64,000 nt of DNA, from NCBI GenBank assembly GCA_032622095.1, contig CP136065.1:39993503-40057502 (forward strand), read 5' to 3'. Origin of the DNA: Siphonodentalium dalli. Taxonomy: Eukaryota; Mollusca; Scaphopoda; Gadilida; Siphonodentaliidae. This document shows positions 6,661 to 64,000 of the stretch, in pieces. A model generated the notes under the pieces. The model was not told the DNA's origin and made no database searches. It saw nothing but the letters and a program-made list of their open reading frames with translations. The translations under genes and the position numbers were made by a program. Within the stretch, counting starts at the first letter, position 1. Every line of letters starts with the position of its first letter.

Positions 6661-7870
6661 TGTACATATAGCGGAACTATACCGTCGACTATATATAGTC
6701 ACGAGGAACCAAGGGTGAATCGTTCACCGAAGTTCAATCCTCGAAATGCCGAGATTTGCCGAATATGCATGTTTGCCGCCGAATATGTATGTGTGGTCGC
6801 GACCCAAGTCTGTGTATGATCCGGGCTGGTCCGGGCGGTGTTTAGTTACACAATGCAGCAGTAACGGCAACACGTCTTGGTGGAGGGGGGTTCGTTCTAA
6901 AGAGGAAGATTAAAAAAATATATTGCAAACATTTTGTCAACATTTTATCACACTAGGTTCATGCCACTGTGTAGGAACTGTTACATGTACATATAGCGGA
7001 ACTATACCGTCGACTATATATAGTCACGATGAACCAAGGGTGAATCGTTCACCGAAGTTCAATCCTCGAAATGCCGACATCGCCGAATATGTTTGCCGCG
7101 AATGAAGCTAACAGCCCGACCTGCCCATGCATGTGATGTCCAGGGGGTGATTTTAGTGACCAGAACAGTGCGGGGTCATGGAAACCTCGCACGTACGGAT
7201 GTGAGGTCGCAGCAACACAGAAGTGCCGCTATTACCCCCATAACTTGCCAGCATTGCCGCTACATTTATTTGTGCATTTATGAGTTCTTAGCGCACTGCT
7301 CTTGCCACTAAAATCACCCATTTTCACCAAACACCACATGGGCTGTCCGAGTTGGTCCGGACTGATAGCTTCATTCGCGGCAAACATGTTCGGCGGCATT
7401 ACTGGGGTTAATTGCCAAGCTTCGGTGGACGATTCGCCATTGTCTCCTCGTGAATGTAGTCGACGGTAGTCCCGCTTCATATATATTTGGAGTTCTTGGT
7501 GGTACGGAGGCGACACGGGGGTCCGAGATGCGCGTCATTTTATTGTTGACACACTATTGCAATTCTGGTACATGTAGATTAGAGGCTAATAACGGCACCT
7601 ATGTGTGGTCGCGACCCAAGTCTGTGTATGATCCGGGCTGGTCCGGGCGGTGTTTAGTTACACAATGCAGCAGTAACGGCAACACGTCTTGGTGGATGGG
7701 GTTTCTTTCTAAAGAGGAAGATAAAAAAAATATATTGCAAACATTTTGTCAACATTTTATCACACTAGGTTCATGCCACTGTGTAGGAACTGTTACACCG
7801 GAAGTCGTTCTATCGCCGGTATTGTGATGGTTCTTGCCTGAGTTGTTACGGTTCCTGATGATTGAAAATA
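6661..7870. repeat. Shuffled block of direct repeats with diverged satellite relics
   Basis: Two direct repeat pairs are interleaved. 6661-6785 resembles 6986-7103 (TGTACATATAGCGGAACTAT and onward). 6788-6985 is nearly identical to 7600-7796, beginning TATGTGTGGTCGCGACC. Between them, 7050-7260 is a diverged forward subunit of the satellite at 53-58 kb (GAAGCTAACAGCCCG, then CATGGAAACC, then AGAAGTGCCGC). 7330-7520 is a diverged reverse-strand piece (CGGCATTACTGGGGTTAATTG). TCCGGGCTGGTCCGGGCGGT also matches, inverted, the left edge of that array at 53,333. Open frames here are non-genic. Confidence 0.8.
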
Positions 7871-19452: not shown

Positions 19453-20655
19453 GTTTCAATAGGCTTATAAGAAGGGCCTGTGTTTCAATAGGCTTATAAG
19501 AATGGCCTGTGTTTCAATAGGCTTATAAGAAGGGCCAGTGTTTCAATAGGCTTATAAGAAGGGCCTGTGTTTCAATAGGCTTATAAGAAGGGCCTGTGTT
19601 TCAATAGGCTTATAAGAATGGCCTGTTCAATAGGCTTATAAGAAGGGCCTGTTCAATAGGCTTATAAGAAGGGTCTGTTCAATAGGCTTATAATAAGGGC
19701 CTGTTCAATAGGCTTATAAGAAGGGCTTCAATGGGCTTATAAGAAGGGCCTGTTCAATAGGCTTATAAGAAGGGCTTCAATCGGCTTATAAGAAGGGCTT
19801 CAATAGGCTTATAAGAAGGGCCTGTTCAATAGGCTAATAAGAAGGGCTTCAATAGGCTTATAAGAAGGGCCTGTTCAATAAGCTTATAAGAAGGGCCTGT
19901 TCAATAGGCTTATAAGAAGGGCTTCAATAGGCTTATAAGAAGGGCCTGTTCAATAGGCGTATAAGAAGGGCCTGTTCAATAGGCTTATAAGAAGGGCCTG
20001 TTCAATAGGCTTATAAGAAGGGCCTGTTCAATAGGCTTATAAGAAGGGCCTGTTCAATAGGCTTATAAAAAGGGCCTGTTCAATAGGCTTATAAGAAGGG
20101 CCTGTTCAATATGCTTATAAGAAGGGCCTGTTCAATAGGCTTATAAGAAGTGTTTCAATAGTATTATAAGAAGGGCCTGTTCAATAGGCTTATAAGAAGG
20201 GCCTGTTCAATAGGCTTATAAGAAGGGCTTCAATAGGCTTATAAGAAGGGTCTGTTCAATAGGCTTATACGAAGGGCCTGTTCAATAGGCTTATAAGAAG
20301 GGCCTGTTCAATAGGCTTATAAGAAGGGCATGTTCAATAGGCTTATAAGAAGGGCCTGTTCAATAGGCTTATAAGAAGTGTTTCAATAGGCTTATAAGAA
20401 GGGCCTGTTCAATAGGCTTATAAGAAGTGTTTCAATAGGCTTATAAGAAGGGCCTGTTCAATAGGCTTATAAGAAGTGTTTCAATAGGCTTATAAGAAGG
20501 GCTTCAATAGGCTTATAAGAAGGGCCTGTTCAATAGGCTTATACGAAGTGTTTCAATAGGCTTATAAGAAGGGCCTGTTCAATAGGCTTATAAGAAGGGC
20601 CTGTTCAATAGGCTTATAAGAAGTGTTTCAATAGGCTTATAAGAAGGGCCTGTTG
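19453..20655. repeat. Minisatellite with 23-, 26- and 29-bp units
   Basis: About 47 units of CAATAGGCTTATAAGAAGGG followed by a variable link: CTT or TGTTT-type (23 bp), CCTGTT (26 bp) or CCTGTGTTT (29 bp). The first ~7 units are the 29-bp type. The rest mix 26 and 23 bp, with TGTTT units clustered at the right. Substitutions are few, so the array is young. Flanks: a poly-A patch at the left and GGCTTTTATATC at the right. Confidence 0.95.
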
Positions 20656-32582: not shown

Positions 32583-34940
32583 ACCAGGAGTCCCGGCTGC
32601 TGTGTATATATATATACAAGGGAAGGTCTGTCGTGTATCAAGACGTCATATTAACCAGGAGTCCCGGCTGCTGTGTATATATATACAAGGGAAGGTGTAT
32701 CGTGTATCAAGACGTCATATTAACCAGGAGTCCCGGCTGCTGTGTATATATATACAAGGGAAGGTCTGTCGTGTATCAAGACGTCATATTAACCAGGAGT
32801 CCCGGCTGCTGTGTATATATACAAGGGAAACTCTGTCGTGTATCAAGACGTCATATTAACCAGGAGTCCCGGCTGCTGTGTATATATACAAGGGAAGGTT
32901 TTCGTGTATCATGACGTCATATTAACCAGGAGTCCCGGCTGCTGTGTATATATACACGGGAAACTCTGTCGTGTATCAAGACGTCATATTAACCAGGAGT
33001 CCCGGCTGCTGTGTATATTTACAAGAGAAGGTATGTCGTGTATCAAGACGTCATATTAACCAGGAGTCCCGCCTGCTGTGTATATATAGCAGAGAAGGTA
33101 TGTCGTGTATCAAGACGTCATATTAACCAGGAGTCCCGCCTGCTGTGTATATATACAAGAGAAGGTATGTCGTGTATCAAGACGTCATATTAATCAGGAG
33201 TCCCGGCTGCTGTGTATATATACAAGAGAAGGTATGTCGTGTATCAAGACGTCATATTAACCAGGAGTCCCGGCTGCTGTGTATATATACAAGAGAAGGT
33301 ATGCCGTGTATCAAGACGTCATATTAACCAGGAGTCCCGGCTGCTGTGTATATATACAAGGGAATGTGTATCGTGTATCAAGACGTCATATTAACCAGGA
33401 GTCCACGGCTGCTGTGTATATATACAAAGGAAGGTATGTCGTGTATCAAGACGTCATATTAACCAGGAGTCCCGCCTGCTGTGTATATATACAAGAGAAG
33501 GTATGTCGTGTATCAAGACGTCATATTAACCAGTATTCCCGCCTGCTGTGTATATATACAAGAGAAGGTATGTCGTGTATCAAGACGTCATATTAACCAG
33601 GAGTCCACGGCTGCTGTGTATATATACAAGGGAAGGTGTATCGTGCATCAAGACGTCATATTAACCAGGAGTCCACGGCTGCTGTGTATATATACAAGGG
33701 AAGGTATGTCGTGTATCAAGACGTCATATTAACCAGGAGTCACGGCTGCTGTGTATATATACAAGGGAAGGTATGTCGTGTATCAAGACGTCATATTAAC
33801 CAGGAGTCCCGGCTGCTGTGTTTATATACAAGGGAAGGTCTGTCGTGTATCAATACGTCATATTAACCAGGAGTCCCGGCTGCTGTGTTTATATACAAGG
33901 GAAGGTATGTCGTGTGTCAAGACGTCATATTAACCAGGAGTCACGGCTGTTGTGTATATATACAAGAGAAGGTATGTCGTGTATCAAGACGTCATATTAA
34001 CCAGGAGTCCCGGCTGCTGTGTGTATATACAAGGGAAGGTCTGTCGTGTATCAAGACGTCATATTAACCCGGAGTCCCGGCTGCTGTGTATATATACAAG
34101 GGAAGGTATGTCGTGTATCAAGACGTCATATTAACCAGGAGTCCCGGCTGCTGTGTATATATACAAGGGAAGGTCTGTCGTGTATCAAGACGTCATATTA
34201 ACCAGGAGTCCCGCCTGCTGTGTATATATACAAGAGAAGGTATGTCGTGTATCAAGACGTCATATTAACCAGGAGTCCCGGCTGCTGTGTATATATACAA
34301 GAGAAGGTATGTCGTGTATCAATACGTCATATTAACCAGGAGTCCACGGCTGCTGTGTATATATACAAGGGAAGGTGTATCGTGCATCAAGACATCATAT
34401 TAACCAGTATTCCCGCCTGCTGTGTATATACAAGGGAAGGTATGTCGTGTATCAAGACGTCATATTAACCAGGAGTCCCGCCTGCTATGTATATATACAA
34501 GAGAAGGTATGTCGTGTATCAAGACGTCATATTAACCAGGAGTCCCGGCTGCTGTGTATATATACACGGGGAGATGTATCGTGTATCAAGACGTCATATT
34601 AACCAGGAGTCCACGGCTGCTGTGTATATATACAAGGGAAGGTGTATCGTTCATCAAGACGTCATATTAACCAGGAGTCACGGCTGCTGTGTATATATAC
34701 AAGGGGAGGTGTATCGTGCATCAAGACGTCATATTAACCAGGCGTCACGACTGCTGTGTATATATACAAGGGGAGGTGTATCGTGCACCAAGACGTCATA
34801 TTAACCAGGAGTCCCGGCTGCTGTGTATATATGCAAGGGAAGGTGTATCGTGCATCAAGACGTCATATTAACCAGGTGTCCCGGCTGCTGTGTATATATA
34901 TACAAGGGAAGGAGTATCGTGCATCAATACGTCATATTAA
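32583..34940. repeat. Minisatellite, 67-bp unit, about 35 copies
   Basis: Unit: ACCAGGAGTCCCGGCTGCTG, then TGTATATATACAAGGGAAGG, a short variable link, then CGTGTATCAAGACGTCATATTA. Each unit carries a TATATATA patch and the dyad GACGTC next to TCAT (CRE-like). Variation is mainly GAGTCC/GAGTCA, AGAGAA/AGGGAA and TATGTC/TGTATC. Because 67 is not a multiple of three, three frames read through in rotation and give many overlapping ~60-residue ORFs, none real. The last unit ends exactly in the TTAA of MITE F4. Confidence 0.96.
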
Positions 34941-35175
34941 CCCTTTCTCTACCAAATAGTCATTGATGAGTAGTTGATGAGTAGACCTTTTGTTGTACTT
35001 ATTTTCTATACATTTCCCACCGATGAAGATGACCCATTTTGCTCTTGTATTATCTGTTTTTTTTGCCTGTCGTCTGTTTCTGTTACATCAGCACCCCTCC
35101 AAATGAGTAATGGAATATTCCAAAGTATATTGCTATAACTGAATGGGAGAATCCATTTAGTATAGAAATGGTTAA
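34937..35175. mobile_element. piggyBac-like MITE, family F copy 4 (complete)
   Basis: 239 bp, TTAA to TTAA: TTAACCCTTTCTCTACC at the left and GTATAGAAATGGTTAA at the right. It is the inverted equivalent of 23,591-23,831, including ATTCTCCCATT and CTCATTTGGAGGGG when read on the minus strand. Its left TTAA is the CATATTAA that ends a 67-bp minisatellite unit, so it inserted into the last unit or defines the array edge. Confidence 0.82.
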
Positions 35176-53216: not shown

Positions 53217-53337
53217 ATTGCTGAGAAGTTCCACCTGCAAAACGACGCGATGCTACATGTATAATGTATGTTCTTTGATATTTATAATTATCTATCCGTT
53301 TATTTAATATACAGTTTCGTGCGGTGTGACTAAACAC

Positions 53338-53428
53338 CGCCCGGACCAGCCCGGACCAGCCCGGACCAGCCCGGACCAGCCCGGACAAGCCCGGACGAGC
53401 CCGGACCAGCCCGGACCAGCCCGGACCC
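53338..53428. repeat. CCCGGACCAG 10-bp expansion at the array's left edge
   Basis: Nine tandem decamers CCCGGACCAG, two with substitutions (CCCGGACAAG, CCCGGACGAG). They amplify the AGCCCGGACC motif that occurs singly or twice in ordinary satellite units. Confidence 0.95.
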
Positions 53429-56400
53429 CCCATATGGACTATATGAGTGATTGTAAGGGCAATATAAGTGCAGGGGTGTCATGGAAACCCACTCAGGGTC
53501 GCTATTAACCCTCAAAATGCCGGCATCGGCGAAAATGTTCGCCGCGAAATGAAGCTAACAGCCCGGACCGCCCCTGCTGCGTCCAGGTGGGATTTTAGTA
53601 TCCATACCTGTGCGGGGGTGTTAATGAAACCCAAATACGCACGGAGAGTGGTCAAGGTCAAACGGAAGTGCCGCTTATTAACCCCTAAACTTCCCAGATT
53701 CACCCAGAATTAAAAAATTGCGCCCCCAATAAACAAATTCACAGCCCGGACCCCCTTAATGTCCTCGTACTTCTAATAACTCCTTACATATGTGTTGTGG
53801 AACTACCCTCAACTAGACTCAAGAAGATTCAAGGGCGAGTCGCCCACGAATGCCTGGCAATTAACCCCCAAAATGCCGCCATCGCCGATTATGTTTACCC
53901 ATAACGACGCTGACAGCCCGGACCATCCAAGTCCAACCCGGACCCCCAATATGGACTATATGAGTGATTTTAATGGCAATATAAGTGCAGGGGTGTCATG
54001 GAAACCCACTCAGGGTCGCTATTAACCCTCAAAATGCCGGCATCGGCGAAAATGTTCGCCGTGAAATGAAGCTAACAGCCCGGACCGCCCCTGCTGCGTC
54101 CAGGTATGATTTTAGTATCGATTCATGTACGAGGGTGTTAATGAAACCCAAATACGCACGGAGAGTGATCAAGGTCAAACGGAAGTGCCGCTTATTAACC
54201 CCTAAACTTCTCAGATTCAGCCAGAATTAAAAAATTGCGCCCCCAATAAACAAATTCACAGCCCGGACCCCCTTAATGTCCTCGTACTTCTAATAACTCC
54301 TTTCATATGTGTTGTGGAACTACCCTCGACTACATTCACGAAGATACAAGGGCGAGTCGCCCACGAATGCCTGGCAATTAACCCCCAAAATGCCGCCATC
54401 GCCGATTATGTTTACCGATAACGACGCTGACAGCCCGGCCCATCCCAGTCCAGCCCGGACCCCCCATATGGACTATATGAGTGATTGTAAGGGCAATATA
54501 AGTGCAGGGGTGTCATGGAAACCCACTCAGGGTCGCTATTAACCCTCAAAATGCCGGCATCGGCGAAAATGTTCGCCGCGAAATGAAGCTAACAGCCCGG
54601 ACCGCCCCTGCTGCGTCCAGGTGGGATTTTAGTATCCATACCTGTGCGGGGGTGTTAATGAAACCCAAATACGCACGGAGAGTGGTCAAGGTCAAACGGA
54701 AGTGCCGCTTATTAACCCCTAAACTTCCCAGATTCAGCCAGAATTAAAAAATTGCGCCCCCAATAAACAAATTCACAGCCCGGACCCCCTTAATGTCCTC
54801 GTACTTCTAATACCTCCTTACATATGTGTTGTGGAACTACCCTCAACTAGACTCAAGAAGATTCAAGGGCGAGTCGCCCACGAATGCTTTGCAATTAACC
54901 CCCAAAATGCCGCCATCGCCGATTATGTTTACCCATAACGACGCTGACAGCCCGGACCATCCAAGTCCAGCCCGGACCCCCCATATGGACTATATGAGTG
55001 ATTTTAATGGCAATATAAGTGCAGGGGTGTCATGGAAACCCACTCAGGGTTGCTATTAACCCTCAAAATGCCGGCATCGGCGAAAATGTTCGCCGTGAAA
55101 TGAAGCTAACAGCCCGGACCGCCCCTGCTGCGTCCAGGTGTGATTTTAGTATCGATTCATGTACGAGGGTGTTAATGAAACCCAAATACGCACGGAGAGT
55201 GATCAAGGTCAAACGGAAGTGCCGCTTATTAACCCCTAAACTTCCCAGATTCAGCCAGAATTAAAAAATTGTGCCCCCAATAAACAAATTCACAACCCGG
55301 ACCCCCTTAATGTCCTCGTACTTCTAATAACTCCTTACATATGTGTTGTGGAACTACCCTCGACTACACTCACGAAGATACAAGGGCGAGTCGCCCACGA
55401 ATGCCTGGCAATTAACCCCCAAAATGCCGCCATCGCCGATTATGTTTACCCATAACGACGCTGACAGCCCGGACCATCCAAGTCCAGCCCGGACCCCTCA
55501 TATGGACTATATGAGTGATTGTAAGGCCAATATAAGTGCAGGGGTGTCATGGAAACCCACTCAGGGTCGCTATTAACCCACAAAATGCCGGCATCGGCGA
55601 AAATGTTCGCCGTGAAATGAAGCTAACAGCCGGACCGCCCCTGCTGCGTCCAGTTATGATTTTAGTATCCATACATGTGCGAGGGTGTTAATGAAACCCA
55701 AATACGCACGGAGAGTGATCAAGGTCAAACGGAAGTGCCGCTTATTAACCCCTAAACTTCTCAGATTCAGCCAGAATTAAAAAATTGCGCCCCCAATAAA
55801 CAAATTCCCAGCCCGGACCCCCTTAATGTCCTCGTACTTCTAATAACTCCTTACATATGTGTTGTGGAACTACCCTCGACTACATTCACGAAGATACAAG
55901 GGCGAGTCGCCCACGAATGCCTGGCAATTAACCCCCAAAATGCCGCCATCGCCGATTATGTTTACCCATAACGACGCTGACAGCCCGGACCATCCAAGTC
56001 CAGCCCGGACCCCCCATATGGACTATATGAGTGATTTTAATGGCAATATAAGTGCAGGTTTGTCATGGAAACCCACTCAGGGTTGCTATTAACCCTCAAA
56101 ATGCCGGCATCGGCGAAAATGTTCGCCGTGAAATGAAGCTAACAGCCCGGACCGCCCCTGCTGCGTCCAGGTATGATTTTAGTATCGATTCATGTACGAG
56201 GGTGTTAATGAAACCCAAATACGCACGGAGAGTGATCAAGGTCAAACGGAAGTGCCGCTTATTAACCCCTAAACTTCCCAGATTCAGCCATAATTAAAAA
56301 ATTGCGCCCCCAATAAACAAATTCACAGTCCGGACCCCCTTAATGTCCTCGTACTTCTAATAACTCCTTAAATTTGTGTTGTGGAACTACCCTCGACTAC

Positions 56401-57649
56401 ATTCACGAAGATACAAGGGCGAGTCGCCCACGAATGCCTGGCAATTAACCCCCAAAATGCCGCCATCGCCGATTATGTTTACCGATAACGACGCTGACAG
56501 CCCGGCCCATCCCAGTCCAGCCCGGACCCCCCATATGGACTATATGAGTGATTTTAAGGGCAATATAAGTGCAGGGGTGTCATGGAAACCCACTCAGGGT
56601 TGCTATTAACCCTCAAAATGCCGGCATCGGCGAAAATGTTCGCCGTGAAATGAAGCTAACAGCCCGGACCACCCCTGCTGCGTCCAGTTATGATTTTAGT
56701 ATCCATGCATGTGCGAGGGTGTTAATGAAACCCAAATACGCACGGAGAGTGATCAAGGTCAAACGGAAGTGCCGCTTATTAACCCCTAAACTTCTCAGAT
56801 TCAGCCAGAATTAAAAAATTGCGCCCCCAATAAACAAATTCACAGCCCGGACCCCCTTAATGTCCTCGTACTTCTAATAACTCCTTACATATGTGTTGTG
56901 GAACTACCCTCGACTACATTCACGAAGATACAAGGGCGAGTCGCCCACGAATGCCTGGCAATTAACCCCCAAAATGCCGCCATCGCCGATTATATTTACC
57001 GATAACGACGCTGACAGCCCGGCCCATCCCAGTCCAGCCCGGACCCCCCATATGGACTATATGAGTGATTGTAAGGGCAATATAAGTGCAGGGGTGTCAT
57101 GGAAACCCACTCAGGGTCGCTATTAACCCTCAAAATGCCGGCATCGGCGAACATGTTCGCCGCGAAATGAAGCTAACAGCCCGGACCGCCCCTGCTGCGT
57201 CCAGGTGGGATTTTAGTATCCATACCTGTGCGGGGGTGTTAATGAAACCCAAATACGCACGGAGAGTGGTCAAGGTCAAACGGAAGTGCCGCTTATTAAC
57301 CCCTAAACTTCCCAGATTCACCCAGAATTAAAAAATTGCGCCCCCAATAAACAAATTCACAGCCCGGACCCCCTTAATGTCCTCGTACTTCTAATAACTC
57401 CTTACATATGTGTTGTGGGACTACCCTCGACTAGACTCAAGACGATTCAAGGGCGAGTCGCCCACGAATGCCTGGCAATTAACCCCCAAAATGCCGCCAT
57501 CGCCGATTATGTTTACCGATAACGACGCTGACAGCCCGGCCCATCCCAGTCCAGCCCGGACCCCCCATATGGACTATATGAGCGATTGTAAGGCCAATAT
57601 AAGTGCAGGGGTGTCATGGAAACCCACTCAGGGTCGCTATTAACCCTCA

Positions 57650-58560
57650 AAATGCCGGCTGAAATGAAGCTAACAGCCCGGACCGCCCCTGCTGCGTCCA
57701 GGTATGATTTTAGTATCGATTCATGTACGAGGGTGTTAATGAAACCCAAATACGCACGGAGAGTGTTCAAGGTCAAACAGTAGTTGCGATATTAACCCCT
57801 AAACTTCCCAGATTCAGCTAGAATTTAAAAATTGCGCCCCCAATAAACAAATTCACAGCCCGGACCCCCTTAATGTCCTCGTATTTCTAATAACTCCTTA
57901 CATATGTGTTGTGGAACTACCCTCGACTACACTCACGAAGAACCACGGGCGAGTCGCCCACGACAGTCTGGCAATTAACCCCCAAAATACCGCCATCGCC
58001 GAATATGTTGACCGATAACGACGCTGACAACCCGGACCGCCCCTGTGGCGTCTAGGTGTGATTTTTGAGTCCTTATATGTACACGGGTGTCATGGAAACT
58101 CACAAACACACAAACTATGGTCAAGGCAAAACAGAAGTGCCGATATTAACCCCTAAACTTGCCAGATTCATTCAGAATTACCAAATCGTGCCCCAAATAA
58201 ACAAACTCACAGCCCGGACCGCTTAATCCCATTGTACTTCTAATAACTCCTTACATATGTGTTGCAGAAGTACATTTGACTGCACTCACGATGAAATAAG
58301 GGCGAGTCGCCTACGAAAGCCTGGCAATTAACCCCTAAAATCCCGCCATCGCCGAATATGTTTACCGATAACGAAGCTAACAGCGCGGACCGCCCCTACT
58401 GCGTCTAGGAGTGATTTTATTGTACGTATCTGTTCACGGGTGTCATGGAAACTCGCATACACACGGACGATGGTCACGGCCAAACTGAAGTGACGATATT
58501 AACCCCTAAACTTGCCAGATTTATTCAGAATTACAAAAATTGTGCCCCCAATAAAAGAAA
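57650..58560 (+). repeat. Diverged, two-subunit edge of the satellite array
   Basis: TTAACCCC starts at 57,792, 57,975, 58,146, 58,328 and 58,499 (spacings 183, 171, 182, 171) show alternation of the c subunit with one other subunit (X). X has the head of subunit a (CCGCCATCGCCGAATATG) joined to the tail of subunit b (GACCGCCCCT, then GAAGTGC/ GAAGTGAC). This differs from the trimer in the main array. Confidence 0.8.
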
Positions 58561-58633: not shown

Positions 58634-58639
58634 TTTATT
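58634..58639 (-). terminator. Polyadenylation signal AATAAA
   Basis: AATAAA on the minus strand about 95 nt after the stop codon of the Tpt1-like gene. This would place the transcript end near 58,615, just outside the satellite array. Confidence 0.6.
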
Positions 58640-58733: not shown

Positions 58734-58946
58734 TTACAAACAATTGACAGTTAGAATTTCTGGAATTATAGGTCCCTTTGTCATGTAGGTATGGACACCA
58801 TTTCGCCATACATTGGCCCCCATCGCGCCCAGCGCCCTTGACTGCATGAAAACAACCGCTGAGTACCCCTTCTTAATTGCTGCATCGTCTGATGCTGCCG
58901 AAAACCTCCTCATGTACACAAACTCTCTGTTTTGACAAACGAGTCC
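58734..58946 (-). CDS. Terminal exon of the Tpt1-like gene
   Basis: 213 nt including TAA. Acceptor CATTTTTGCTTTTCAG|GGA, phase 0. It starts GLVCQNREFVYMRRF, which completes the S-G-L turn, and continues DDAAIKKGYSAVVFMQSRAL and NVWRNGVHTY, ending EILTVNCL. In Tpt1 the G-x-R-H/G step before the V-V-L-x-V strand holds the fourth catalytic Arg; here the sequence is I-K-K-G. R-N-G-V matches the family's E/S-N-G-V turn. A polyadenylation signal follows at 58,634-58,639. Confidence 0.85.
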   Translation of the reverse strand, partial: GLVCQNREFVYMRRFSAASDDAAIKKGYSAVVFMQSRALGAMGANVWRNGVHTYMTKGPIIPEILTVNCL

Positions 58947-61490
58947 CTGAAAAGCAAAAATGCACAGTAAAACAACAATGTAGTTCTTTCAAAAATATCA
59001 GTAAATTGACAGTAAATGCCTTAGTGACATGTGCATGGTATGTATGATTTGTTTGCAATGCTTTTAATATATTCGGCAATTTGACTACTGAAAAATGGCT
59101 GGTTGATACACTTCCTGTAGATCTAGTCGTGGCCAGCAACTATATGACAATTGAATCTATCTCTTTAATTTGAGTAATGATAGTAATTATAAATCTGGTT
59201 ACATAATTATTTTTCACAACATATTTGACTGGAGTCTGTTGTATTGTATGTAGAGTTGGTTACTTACACTAAGGCGGATGCTACTCATATGCTTCTTGTG
59301 TGTGTAGTGCACCAGTGTCATGGTCTCGTTTAGGTCAACGTGACTCCACCCGGCAGATATGGGTTCAATCTGTAAAAGAAATGTATAATCATAATTGCCT
59401 CGTGTATGTGATGCATATATAGGCTGGTAAGCTTGACATCATGCAGAGGGGTTAAAACATTTCGAATACCAATTAAAGTGATGTGATACAATCCGGTAAG
59501 GTGCTCAAATAGAAATGGGGATTAATCTGGTTCAAAGTAGTTGTTTTACAGATATATACAACACACGTCTTATATATGTATTCTTATATATTTTTTAAAT
59601 GCAGTGGTGGAGATGAAATCGTTTTCCGAAGTACACCCACCCACAATCAAAATAAAATTGCACTGTCTCAAAAATCAAATTTGGTTCTAAATATTTACAA
59701 TTAAGCATAGTTCAGACAATGTTTTCTATGTAGTGGTACGGTCGATTTTCTTGACATTTTCGGCAAAGTAGAATGCTACAGTCCCCCAGTTGACATAGCA
59801 CCTGAGTAATAACTTATTAGTTTCACGCAGCCGAACAAGTACATAATATGTCCTTTCGTTTTCACATCGTTATATACTTCTAAGGTCGGTAACATATTAT
59901 GTATAAGCAAGTTACAGTATTGCATAACATATTATTCGTGTGATTTTAGATATGCTACCATACAATAAAAAAAGTGATTTACAGAAACCTCAAACAAAAT
60001 TAACAGAACATTGCCGCTATACACTTACTGTGACCCCGTGGCCCTGGTGGGCTCGCACGCAATCATTCACAAACTCAATGCGCGATGTGGTACCAGGATC
60101 TCTGGTCGCAGCCTCTCTCAATCGTGCCGGTGTGACGCCCAGGAAAGAAGACATTTTCCAGATTGGAACTAGTCCGTTTTCTGAAAAGAAAATAGAAGTG
60201 GATGATACTCTGCTCGCGTGCTCTATCACAATATATTTACACATGCACTGAGTGTGATTATAACTAAATCCAGCATTCCGATTGGTCGGCGCGCTCGTGA
60301 TTAGTTGCAATTAAATATCGGTGAACGCGCAAGAGGGTCAAGAGGGGAGGACCCATCGGTCCTTCCGACAATCCCGGTGTTAGCCCCCCCCCCCAAACCA
60401 ATAAACAAATCCCTTTGGTCAGAGGGTTAGAATTACATCGACGCGTCATTTATTTTGGAGAAGAACGCGTAATGTCTTGGGCGCATTTGCACAGGATTGA
60501 CTTAATAAATCAGGTTTCAATATAAAGAGCCTCATTTTGAAAAAGTATTCAGTTGGTTTCTGGTCGGGTGCTATGGGATATTTTGGGCTGGTTTTGTCAC
60601 GATACACTTTTCGATTTAAATACATTTACAAAAGTGGCTTTTTCGATAAATGTATATAAATATAAGGATTAACTGTCATGTGGACTGTTTTTATGGAGAT
60701 GTAACCGCGAGGTAAGTGATCATAACTTGTATGACCACATACTTCACGGTTACATCTCCATAAAACAGTCCACATGACCGTTAATCCTTAAATGACTACG
60801 GGTGGCATATTTGTTCAAATCGCCATCAACAGTAAGAATGTTAAAATGTGTATAGTTTTGTTCAGATGCCAAACATAATCTGCGCGTAAATATTATATTG
60901 TCATCAAGACGTACGATGATGTACGTGAACAAGAGCCTGCTCGTGATAAAGAAGTTGTGCTTCTGTTTACATAAAACAGCGCAATTCTATTGGTTAATCA
61001 CACACAATGATATAAACGCTCTTTATTATTTACATATCAGGAAAACAGTAAGAAAGAACGCTCTTTATGTTTACCATATCAAAGGTCAGGAAACGTAACG
61101 TTTTTTGCTTTTGTTTACATAACAAAGCAAACAAAATTGATAATAACATACTGTTTATGCCACATTTTTAATTGGTGTAAGAACAATGACTGTCTATATT
61201 TTATTATTCTTTATGTTTATGGCGGTTTTTGACGGAGGTGAATATTTATGTTAAAATTATGCTTCAAGTATGGGATGTACAATAAAACAAGTCGTCATCA
61301 AATCCAATTCGCGCGGGATGATTTGGCAATTGAACGGGTACTTACTAGGGACCAACTGCTTTTCCCATCTAAGGGCCCTTATCAGGGCACGTCCGATGCG
61401 GTCTAGGTCGGACGGAGCACACAACATCTCTAGAGTATGTTCGCTGTTGACGATCTCCTGTTGAATGCTCTCAGTCTCTGCGTTATAATC
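58734..61490 (-). CDS. Tpt1/KptA-like RNA 2'-phosphotransferase domain protein (four 3' exons)
   Basis: Four exons join in phase into about 203 residues: 61,490-61,346, 60,180-60,029, 59,369-59,268 and 58,946-58,734. Tpt1 enzymes remove a splice-junction 2'-phosphate from RNA using NAD+, and relatives ADP-ribosylate nucleic-acid ends. Motifs come in family order: an N-terminal helix ending A-L-R-W (residues 39-42; family A/L-L-R-H), N-G-L-V-P at 50-54 (family D-G-[FW]-V/A-P-like), V-R-A-H-Q-G-H at 90-96 (family I-R-A-x-Q-G-H), T-L-V-H-Y-T at 117-122 (family L-x-H-G-T), S-I-R-L-S-G-L, A-V-V-F, and R-N-G-V at 181-184. Length matches the family (~180-230). The His after LR is Trp, and the Arg expected before the A-V-V-F strand is Lys, so activity is uncertain. 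Further 5' exon(s) are missing from view. Confidence 0.85.
59268..59369 (-). CDS. Exon 3 of the Tpt1-like gene
   Basis: 102 nt, phase 0 to phase 0. Acceptor CATTTCTTTTACAG|ATT; donor CTTAGT|GTAAGT. It encodes 34 residues containing ETMTLVHYTHKKHMSSIRLS. This fits the Tpt1 segment L-x-H-G-T...S-I-L-x-x-G-L that opens the NAD+-binding half; the usual HGT is HYT. Confidence 0.84.
59474..59853. repeat. Family K core, copy 4, with SINE-tail patch, intronic
   Basis: Begins AGTGATGTGATACAATCCGG and ends CCGAACAAGTACATAATATG. The middle (59,632-59,682) is replaced by the SINE-tail sequence ATTGCACTGTCTCAAAAATC. It lies in the intron between exons 3 and 2 of the Tpt1-like gene. Confidence 0.72.
60029..60180 (-). 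CDS. Exon 2 of the Tpt1-like gene
   Basis: 152 nt. Acceptor TATTTTCTTTTCAG|AA; donor GTCACA|GTAAGT. Two starting bases complete a Lys codon with the previous exon. The peptide contains NGLVPIWKMSSFLGVTPARL, REAATRD and CVRAHQGHGVT. The R-A-H-Q-G-H stretch is the most diagnostic match to Tpt1, whose IRAxQGHS loop carries the third catalytic Arg; that Arg is present. Confidence 0.87.
60664..60789. repeat. Foldback in the exon 1-exon 2 intron
   Basis: AAGGATTAACTGTCATGTGG, then ACTGTTTTTATGGAGATGTAACCG, pairs with CGGTTACATCTCCATAAAACAG, then TCCACATGACCGTTAATCCTT. The arms are about 48 bp with few mismatches and a ~28-base centre. Confidence 0.88.
60929..61246. mobile_element. MITE family B, partial copy 3, intronic
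   Basis: Aligns with the middle and right of 3324-3826: AAGAGCCTG, GGTTAATCACACACAATGAT, AACGCTCTTTAT twice, GCTTTTGTTTACATAACAA and GGCGGTTTTTGACGG. Both TTAA ends are missing. Confidence 0.75.
61346..61490 (-). CDS. Exon 1 (first visible) of the Tpt1-like gene
   Basis: 145 nt. Acceptor TTTTTCTTACAG|GAT at 61,491; donor CCTA|GTAAGT at 61,345. It enters in phase 0 and leaves one base for the next codon. The peptide begins DYNAETESIQQEIVNSEHTL and ends DLDRIGRALIRALRWEKQ-LVP. The helix with R-A-L-I-R-A-L-R-W corresponds to the first helix of Tpt1, where LRH supplies two active-site residues. An acceptor here means at least one more exon upstream, towards or beyond the right-hand satellite array. 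Confidence 0.82.
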
Positions 61491-61671
61491 CTGTAAGAAA
61501 AATGGATCTGGTAAGCGGACATGTTTGGTGGACAACGAAATGGTAACGAAAGGGTAGTCACCAACAAGTACATCAAATGTTTGTTATTGTTTTTAACACT
61601 CCAATGAACTCTTATACTTTGATGGCAGTAATTGGTACAATACGGTACCAATATTAATAATAATAATACAC

Positions 61672-64000
61672 GATTTTGAGGGTTAATAGCAACCCTGAGT
61701 GGGTTTCCATGACACCCCTGCACTTATATTGCCATTAAAATCACTCATATAGTCCATATGGGGGGGTCCGGGCTGGACTTGGATGGTCCGGGCTGTCAGC
61801 GTCGTTATGGGTAAACATAATCGGCGATGGCGGCATTTTGGGGGTTAATTGACAGGCATTCGTGGGCGACTCGCCCTTGAATCTTCTTGAGTCTAGTCAA
61901 GGGTAGTTCCACAACACATATGTAAGGAGTTATTAGAAGTACGAGGACATTAAGGGGGTCCGGGCTGTAAATTTGTTTATTGGGGGCGCAATTTTTTTTA
62001 TTCTGGCTGAATCTGGGAAGTTTAGGGGTTAATAAGCGGCACTTCCGTTTGACCTTGATCACTCTCCGTGCGTATTTGGGTTTCATTATCACCCTCGTAC
62101 ATGAATCGATACTAAAATCATACCTGGACGCAGCAGGGGCGGTCCGGGCTGTTAGCTTCATTTCACGGCGAACATTTTCGCCGATGCCGGCATTTTGAGG
62201 GTTAATAGCAACCCTGAGTGGGTTTCCATGACAACCCTGCACTTATATTGCCATTAAAATCACTCATATAGTCCATATGGGGGGTCCGGGCTGGACTTGG
62301 ATGGTCCGGGCTGGTCCGGGCTGTCAGCGTCGTTATCGGTAAACATAATCGGCGATGGCGGCATTTTGGGGGTTAATTGCCAGGCATTCGTGGGCGACTC
62401 GCCCTTGAATCTTCTTGAGTCTAGTCGAGGGTAGTTCCACAACACATATGTAAGGAGTTATTATAAGTACGAGGACATTAAGGGGGTCCGGGCTGTGAAT
62501 TTGTTTATTGGGTCGCAATTTTTTAATTCTGGCTGAATCTGGGAAGTTTAGGGGTTAATAAGCGGCACTTCCGCTTGACCTTGACCACTCTCCGTGCGTA
62601 TTTGGGTTTCATTAACACCCTCGTACATGAATCGATACTAAAATCATACCTGGACGCAGCAGGGGCGGTCCGGGCTGTTAGCTTCATTTCACGGCGAACA
62701 TTTTCGCCGATGCCGGCATTTTGAGGGTTAATAGCAACCCTGAGTGGGTTTCCATGACACCCCTGCACTTATATTGCCATTAAAATCACTCATATCGTCC
62801 ATATGGGGGGTCCGGGCTGGACTTGGATGGTCCGGGCTGTCAGCGTCGTTATGGGTAAACATAATCAGCGATGGCGGCATTTTGGGGGTTAATTGCCAGG
62901 CATTCGTGGGCGACTCGCCCTTGAATCTTCTTGAGTCTAGTCGAGGGTAGTGCCACAACACATATGTAAGGAGTTATTAGAAGTACGAGGACATTAAGGG
63001 GGTCCGGGCTGTAAATTTGTTTATTGGGGGCGCAATTTTTTAATTCTGGCTGAATCTGGGAAATTTAGGGGTTAATAAGTGGCACTTCCGTTTGACCTTG
63101 ATCACTCTCCGTGCGTATTTGGGTTTCATTAACACCCTCGTACATGAATCGATACTAAAATCATACCTGGACGCAGCAGGGGCGGTCCGGGCTGTTAGCT
63201 TCATTTCACGGCTAACATTTTCGCCGATGCCGGCATTTTGAGGGTTAATAGCAACCCTGAGTGGGTTTCCATGACAACCCTGCACTTATATTGCCATTAA
63301 AATCACTCATATAGTCCATATGGGGGGGTCCGGGCTGGACTTGGATGGTCCGGGCTGTCAGCGTCGTTATGGGTAAACATAATCGGCGATGGCGGCATTT
63401 TGGGGGTTAATTGCCAGGCATTCGTGGGCGACTCGCCCTTGAATCTTCTTGAGTCTAGTCGAGGGTAGTCCCACAACACATATGTAAGGAGTTATTAGAA
63501 GTACGAGGACATTAAGGGGGTCTGGGCTGTGAATTTGTTTATTGGGGGCGCAATTTTTTAATTCTGGCTGAATCTGGGAAGTTTAGGGGTTAATAAGCGG
63601 CACTTCCGTTTGACCTTGACCACTCTCCGTGCGTATTTGGGTTTCATTAACACCCTCGTACATGAATCGATACTAAAATCACACCTGGACGCAGCAGGGG
63701 CGGTCCTGGCTGTTAGCTTCATTTCACGGCGAACATTTTCGCCGATGCCGGCATTTTGAGGGTTAATAGCAACCCTGAGTGGGTTTCCATGACACCCCTG
63801 CACTTATATTGCCATTAAAATCACTCATATAGTCCATATGGGGGGTCCGGGCTGGACTTGGATGGTCCGGGCTGTCAGCGTCGTTATGGGTAAACATAAT
63901 CGGCGATGGCGGCATTTTGGGGGTTAATTGCCAGGCATTCGTGGGCGACTCGCCCTTGAATCTTCTTGAGTCTAGTTGAGGGTAGTTCCACAACACATAT
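61672..64000 (-). repeat. 517-bp satellite array, reverse orientation (runs off the window)
   Basis: The same satellite as 53.33-58.56 kb, on the minus strand. It starts abruptly at ATTTTGAGGGTTAATAGC next to an AATAATAATA run and continues past 64,000 with a 517-518-bp period. About 4.5 units are visible. Identity to array 1 is high, so the two arrays are being kept alike or separated recently. It lies upstream of, or inside the first unseen intron of, the Tpt1-like gene. Confidence 0.96.

Follow-up and report, generated by a model that had tools for sequence, protein, structure and literature searches.

What kind of gene lies between two tandem arrays in the genome of the scaphopod Siphonodentalium dalli? 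The stretch analysed here (the window: 64,000 nucleotides, contig CP136065.1, positions 39,993,503 to 40,057,502 of the forward strand) contains a spliced gene related to the RNA 2′-phosphotransferase Tpt1/KptA, which a first-pass annotation took for a host gene. Taken together, inverted arms, a terminal motif, target-site duplications, several further copies and a transposase gene in long copies lead us to a different reading: the locus is very probably a non-autonomous, internally deleted copy of a foldback-type Mutator-like element (MULE), a DNA transposon, holding the remnant of an SGNH-Tpt1-like cargo gene.

Both arrays are built from one satellite unit, repeated at ~517-bp spacing: the left array occupies 53.4-58.6 kb on the minus strand, and the right one, on the plus strand, starts at 61,673, crosses the window end and stops at base 1,941 of the following 10 kb (L017). 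Arm to arm, they align in inverted orientation at 96.4% identity across 4,299 bp. The sequence GTTTCGTG has two plus-strand and no minus-strand occurrences in bases 53001-66500, and these stand exactly outside both element ends. The parts of the element, in window numbering, are:

53314..53321, no strand assigned: left target-site duplication GTTTCGTG, abutting the left terminus on the outside
53322..53339, plus strand: left terminal motif CGGTGTGACTAAACACCG; the right end, GGGTGTGAATAAACACCG, is on the opposite strand
53339..53427, plus strand: decamer repeats GCCCGGACCA at the outer end of the left arm, mirrored at L017 1912-1970
53322..58555, minus strand: left arm (terminal inverted repeat) of tandem ~517-bp units
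61673..64000, plus strand, continuing to 65,987 (L017 1-1987): right arm
65988..65995 (G000:C5:40059490-40059497), beyond the window: right target-site duplication GTTTCGTG

The element thus spans 53322-65987, 12,666 bp in all, with its two arms around a 3.1-kb core. Tandem arrays do flank the gene on both sides, as the first-pass annotation had it; they are, however, the arms of one inverted repeat with a target-site duplication rather than independent satellites, and the gene is the core of a foldback-type mobile element. The foldback layout, long inverted repeats with tandem repeats around a middle domain, is found in the window copy and in two longer copies on C6 and at C5:95M, which end in near-identical terminal motifs. 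Target-site duplications of at least 8 bp bound all three copies examined (8, 8 and 9 bp).

We searched the core DNA against the species' own genome (2.23 Gb, 9 contigs), obtaining 57 matches with the best 40 of 14,488 candidates scored; counts from this search are lower bounds. Among the matches listed, the core is found at ~99% at the window and four other loci: full length at C6:122.62M and C5:95.03M, in two pieces (99% and 96%) at C1:196.30M and in part at C5:30.99M. It also matched a 459-bp fragment on C2 and divergent pieces at C8:188.74-188.77M and C5:226.58M. Many of the remaining matches are explained by a dispersed repeat in intron 1 (query 254-695), with about thirty listed matches at ~89-91% elsewhere. 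The two long copies, C6:122620065-122637468 (17,404 bp) and C5:95020118-95039315 (19,198 bp), have their own duplications, ATATTAAT and CATCCTGAC respectively, an arm at each far end and the same kind of termini, and are >99% alike 5′ of the gene. Between their arms lie two genes on opposite strands, a MULE transposase gene and the cargo gene. Inverted arms sharing a terminal motif and a target-site duplication, together with ~99% copies at four other loci, two of which have duplications of their own, speak against a host TRPT1-type gene between two unrelated satellite arrays. Barring assembly errors, the duplications and copies refute a stand-alone host gene; we consider that view highly improbable, and the gene is multi-copy mobile cargo.

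Within the window copy, the structure of the spliced gene is as follows:

61491..61672, minus strand: leftover of the upstream intron, with the deletion junction at 61675, the end of long-copy homology
61346..61490, minus strand: exon 1, an internal exon, phase 0, with ALRW replacing LRH; its first in-frame methionine is residue 22
60029..60180, minus strand: exon 2, holding the RAHQGHG motif
59268..59369, minus strand: exon 3, with LVHYT at the position of the HGT motif
58734..58946, minus strand: exon 4, with QNREFVYM and RNGV and the TAA stop
58634..58639, minus strand: AATAAA polyadenylation-type signal ~95 bp past the stop codon, read directly from the sequence

A spliced, RNA-repair-like gene is confirmed here. 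All positions, AG acceptors and GTAAGT donors of the four minus-strand exons agree with the first-pass annotation, as does its claim that they join without a frame break: the product is 203 residues long and stop-free up to the terminal TAA, and no single open reading frame reveals a gene that becomes apparent only after splicing. The three introns (1165, 659 and 321 bp) are bounded by GT..AG, with pyrimidine-rich acceptors, and the GC content is 0.465-0.546 in exons versus 0.315-0.373 in introns. At exon base composition, 203 open codons have a probability of ~3e-5, uncorrected for the exon set having been chosen by the first-pass annotation. Two copies found elsewhere, L038 and L039, share these exons, the frame and the splice sites; being ~99% identical to the window copy, they are hardly independent evidence of coding. 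Intron 1 contains an imperfect hairpin at 60660-60793 (86% over 135 bp), and scans of the window gave no tRNA and no Rfam family at its gathering score.

The predicted product matches PF01885 at E 2.1e-5 over residues 88-190, a significant similarity whose 25.1 bits miss the curated cut-off of 26 by 0.9 bits; neither exon 2 nor exon 4, scanned alone, gave a family match. NCBIfam NF002013 returned E 1e-7 (31.7 bits, equivalog cut-off 231), and the best solved chain was 9ld3_A, named probable RNA 2′-phosphotransferase, at E 4.8e-4. Judged by these profile and structure matches, homology to Tpt1/KptA is real. The splice sites, the GC contrast and the PF01885 homology are also what favours a host TRPT1-type gene. 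In a 19-row tree the window gene is nearest mouse and human TRPT1, yet at 24% identity, with a long branch of 3.2-3.4 and outside every starred group.

The long copies reveal what precedes exon 1. Three upstream exons on the gene's strand (L052 2441-2318, 1267-1009 and 461-332) encode 171 amino acids starting MTLTVALFGSSH, and their reading frame continues at phase 0 into window exon 1. The complete cargo gene has at least seven exons, with an SGNH-hydrolase-like N-terminus and a divergent Tpt1/KptA-like C-terminus. GSSH, YGKSG, GGNS and DNIH occur in that order in the translated exons, and we assigned them by eye to the conserved SGNH blocks (Ser, Gly, Asn, His) as given in PMC4021074, a source that, like the other papers cited below, is represented here by excerpts. 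The first-pass annotation looked for the 5′ exon past base 64,000; in the long copies these exons lie directly upstream of exon 1, and here they are deleted, with arm sequence from 61,673. L052 1-175 corresponds to window 61501-61675 and the homology then stops. Because it ends at 61675, where the arm starts, the window copy is by this comparison an internal-deletion derivative that lacks the SGNH exons and the transposase and keeps only the four Tpt1 exons. Without a transposase it is therefore non-autonomous, and the absence of the real 5′ exons from this locus is a further point against a host TRPT1 gene. The element has inserted with target-site duplication, multiplied and lost internal sequence.

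The transposase was identified in the C6 copy, where PF10551 (MULE domain) matches a 412-residue frame at E 6.9e-7 (30.1 bits, cut-off 27.6), or at E 2.8e-6 with that frame joined to an upstream exon. Its DNA has at least three full-length matches at 99-100%, in addition to partial ones, and relatives at ~64-69% (best 40 of 125 candidates). The open frame makes the C6 copy a candidate autonomous element. In the proposed mechanism, the transposase of an intact copy would act in trans on the terminal motif and the arm repeats, and window-type derivatives would thereby be cut and pasted; such a role has been suggested for the tandem repeats in the arms of Galileo (PMC4079207). The fusion protein of the long copies would probably bind or process RNA ends for the element. 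One segment of the transposase region, 63 bp long (query 2673-2735), recurs at roughly 60-bp intervals in G000:C3:26260832-26262873; this array apparently arose by expansion of transposase coding sequence.

Several observations weigh against this interpretation. The PF10551 match spans 37 of 99 profile positions, and the transposase frame of the C5:95M copy tracks that of C6 for 213 of 412 residues and then diverges, an interruption that leaves the C6 copy as the sole basis for autonomy. For the SGNH-like part, PF13472 gave E 0.0032 and 18.4 bits, which does not reach the cut-off of 32.9, and no solved structure matched it at E<=1. Among near-identical copies the pairwise ratio of non-synonymous to synonymous change (dN/dS) is 0.47-0.61, from 3-13 changes each, and past constraint on the cargo is no more than suggested by the comparisons below. 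The gene and its fusion are predictions from DNA sequence.

Would the Tpt1-like domain be expected to perform the ordinary reaction? The essential tetrad of CthTpt1 consists of Arg18, His19, Arg68 and Arg121, and the HGT motif touches nicotinamide adenine dinucleotide (PMC6333775). By alignment, the window protein has the three tetrad arginines (ALRW, RAHQ and QNRE). The tetrad histidine, the replacement of which also argues against a host TRPT1 gene, is Trp in all five copies with a readable exon 1 (window, L038, L039, L040 and L044), and each of the seven copies whose exon 3 can be read (window and L038-L043) has HYT in place of HGT. In the window copy, Tyr (EFVYM) takes the place of the second His of RxH[IV]H; the seven other copies whose exon 4 was read (L038-L043 and L059) have His there (EFVHM), and L044 lacks an exon 4 match. 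Among the copies seen, this change is thus private to the window copy. Of three features of Tpt1/KptA membership, namely a PF01885 score above the cut-off, a full tetrad and HGT, the window protein shows none. The first-pass statement that the exons spell the Tpt1 fold is therefore correct as to homology and overstated beyond it, given the Trp, the HYT, the Tyr and the sub-cut-off score. Because Trp stands for His and HYT for HGT, the MULE-borne protein is unlikely to carry out ordinary Tpt1 chemistry. The window gene itself is a truncated Tpt1-like gene, probably with an inactive product, since translation could begin only at Met22 and the protein would have no SGNH part, and Trp and Tyr at two conserved His sites.

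To what end an element would carry such a gene can be approached through its copies. Window exons served as the reference for the Tpt1 part and the C6 copy for the SGNH exons (L038 is part of C6, so it has no SGNH comparison). Relative to the window exons, L038 and L039 have three changes each and no indel, L041 has 6 changes, and L040 has 13 with small gaps. L042 has 8 changes (dN/dS 0.28), L044 has 18 with gaps (0.36) and L043 has 27 with a stop (0.52). Pooling L042 and L044, picked as divergent, with L043 excluded for its stop, 12 of ~160 synonymous versus 14 of ~554 non-synonymous sites are changed (Fisher p 0.0066); with L043 added, the figures are 21.2 of 228 (9.3%) versus 31.8 of 792 (4.0%). 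This pattern suggests past constraint on the cargo, and only suggests it because there are few changes per pair and L043 has a stop.

Two explanations of the cargo are compatible with a foldback MULE. According to the first, it is a Pack-MULE-like capture of a host gene with no role for the element, decaying after insertion, to which we give somewhat less than an even chance. An exon-intron gene inside MULE ends resembles Drosophila Ssk-FB4 (PMC8277862), and signs of decay are seen in the truncated window copy, the gaps of L040 and L044 and the stop in L043. A related MULE family, represented by L057 (G000:C4:99.49M) and L058 (C1:120.94M), is ~68% identical to the transposase; no SGNH-Tpt1 cargo was found by tblastn in 10 kb on the corresponding side at either of these two loci, which are ~98% alike and count as one family, a result that does not extend to more distant sequence or to the opposite flank. 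That family also has a frame in which, by eye, we see a resemblance to an OTU-type domain. Capture is harder to reconcile with long copies in which the cargo adjoins the transposase gene instead of replacing it, with dN<dS over divergent copies, and with a DNA search of the genome that revealed no obvious parental host gene (best 40 of 14,488 candidates; L038-L044 compared with flanks). According to the second, given the same slightly-below-even standing, the cargo would be an accessory gene of the element, selected for action on RNA ends such as repair, ADP-ribosylation or escape from RNA surveillance. The intact frames and splice sites of L038 and L039, the three retained arginines and dN<dS are in line with this possibility, as is the presence of Tpt1 domains in Gypsy-type elements of the same genome; the Trp and HYT replacements in every readable copy argue against ordinary Tpt1 chemistry as the selected function.

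The Gypsy-type carriers came from a PF01885 search of the genome, which yielded at least 83 matches (150 of 154 candidates scored), several of them within long open frames and with identical scores. One, at C1:15848760-15864594 (L011, L012; relatives include L001-L008), is a 15.8-kb long terminal repeat (LTR) element whose 509-bp LTRs are identical at 509 of 509 positions; LTRs were measured for this first KptA family alone. Protease, reverse transcriptase, RNase H, integrase zinc-binding and PHD domains, read in pieces, score above cut-offs, and gag and integrase-core matches below them; the Ty3/Gypsy label is our own, from the apparent domain order. Its 1,492-residue frame combines a complete KptA domain (163.3 bits) with a TatD domain (125 bits) at the C-terminus. 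At three more KptA families, one locus each, TatD is present in all three; two have reverse transcriptase or RNase H, and the remaining one has a PNMA (gag-like) match. All four tetrad residues align in L001 and L025 of the first family, families B and D have Lys at the third tetrad position, and the C-family rows differ, L019 having the full tetrad and L036 a His at the first Arg. By their predicted domains, mobile elements of two unrelated classes carry Tpt1 sequences in this genome. Direct descent of the window gene from the Gypsy-borne families is unsupported by the 19-row tree; as to a viral source, one scan of viral contigs with the product gave no relative.

A bolder proposal, which we regard as unlikely, is that Tpt1/KptA was recruited at least twice, by the MULE and by Ty3/Gypsy, as an RNA-end module that would shield element transcripts from host cleavage and ligation, the MULE domain having changed its reaction. 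One such host process may be RTCB-dependent 'SOS splicing', which acts on transposon-bearing transcripts (PMC13247085). If so, the MULE domain, with Trp for His, would be expected to bind RNA ends or ADP-ribosylate RNA and not to remove phosphate.

Foldback elements, MULEs, captured genes, element-borne SGNH domains and virus-borne KptA are already known. Most foldback elements are assigned to the Mutator superfamily, and Tetris of Drosophila virilis, like the window element, has long inverted arms of tandem units (~220 bp in Tetris), a middle domain and 8-10 bp duplications (PMC4079207). It differs in that the excerpts describe a middle domain without evident coding potential and no copy that bears a transposase, whereas here there are a multi-exon gene and a long copy with a MULE transposase frame. 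Arthropod MULEs share the MULE transposase, G/C-rich first bases of the ends and target-site duplications, but measure 1.4-10 kb with terminal inverted repeats of 13-1193 bp (PMC13359780), against 17.4-19.2 kb and multi-kb arms in the long copies. The Pack-MULE/Pack-TIR Ssk-FB4 likewise has an intron-bearing gene in foldback/MULE ends at several loci with distinct duplications (PMC8277862); the cargo here, in contrast, is a two-part fusion alongside a transposase gene. With Tpt1/KptA/TRPT1 proteins (PMC6333775) the window protein shares significant profile similarity and three tetrad arginines, and it departs from them in the Trp, the HYT, the altered RxHxH, the sub-cut-off PF01885 score and, in long copies, the SGNH-like fusion. 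Virus-borne KptA, explained for viruses by RNA repair, is also a domain carried by a genetic parasite, but its reported carriers are phages, together with small numbers of large DNA viruses and of RNA-virus polyproteins (PMC9503650), not transposable elements as here. SGNH/GDSL domains reside on mobile elements in texim with Helitrons (PMC4021074) and in Terminons (PMC6431247), where the excerpts mention neither a Tpt1 fusion nor MULE carriage. By titles and abstract beginnings in the open-licence literature, we found no report of Tpt1 domains on transposable elements.

Animal Tpt1 is without a settled role, and animal tRNA ligation leaves no junction 2′-phosphate (PMC6333775); Tpt1 cargo in two unrelated element classes of one genome offers a concrete context for functional tests. 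A foldback element also gains a candidate transposase-bearing relative, none being known for Tetris or FB4 in the excerpted accounts (PMC4079207, PMC8277862). The locus also demonstrates that "satellites" beside a gene can be foldback-element arms; in annotation it could easily be taken for a host TRPT1-like gene.

Elsewhere in the window, two further ends with GGGCGGTGTTTAGTTACAC stand at 6836 and 7648, with decayed arm units at 7061-7497; these are probably the remains of the same element family. Other tandem arrays lie at 1-1644 (~72-bp unit), 19455-20654 (~26 bp) and 32583-34942 (~67 bp).

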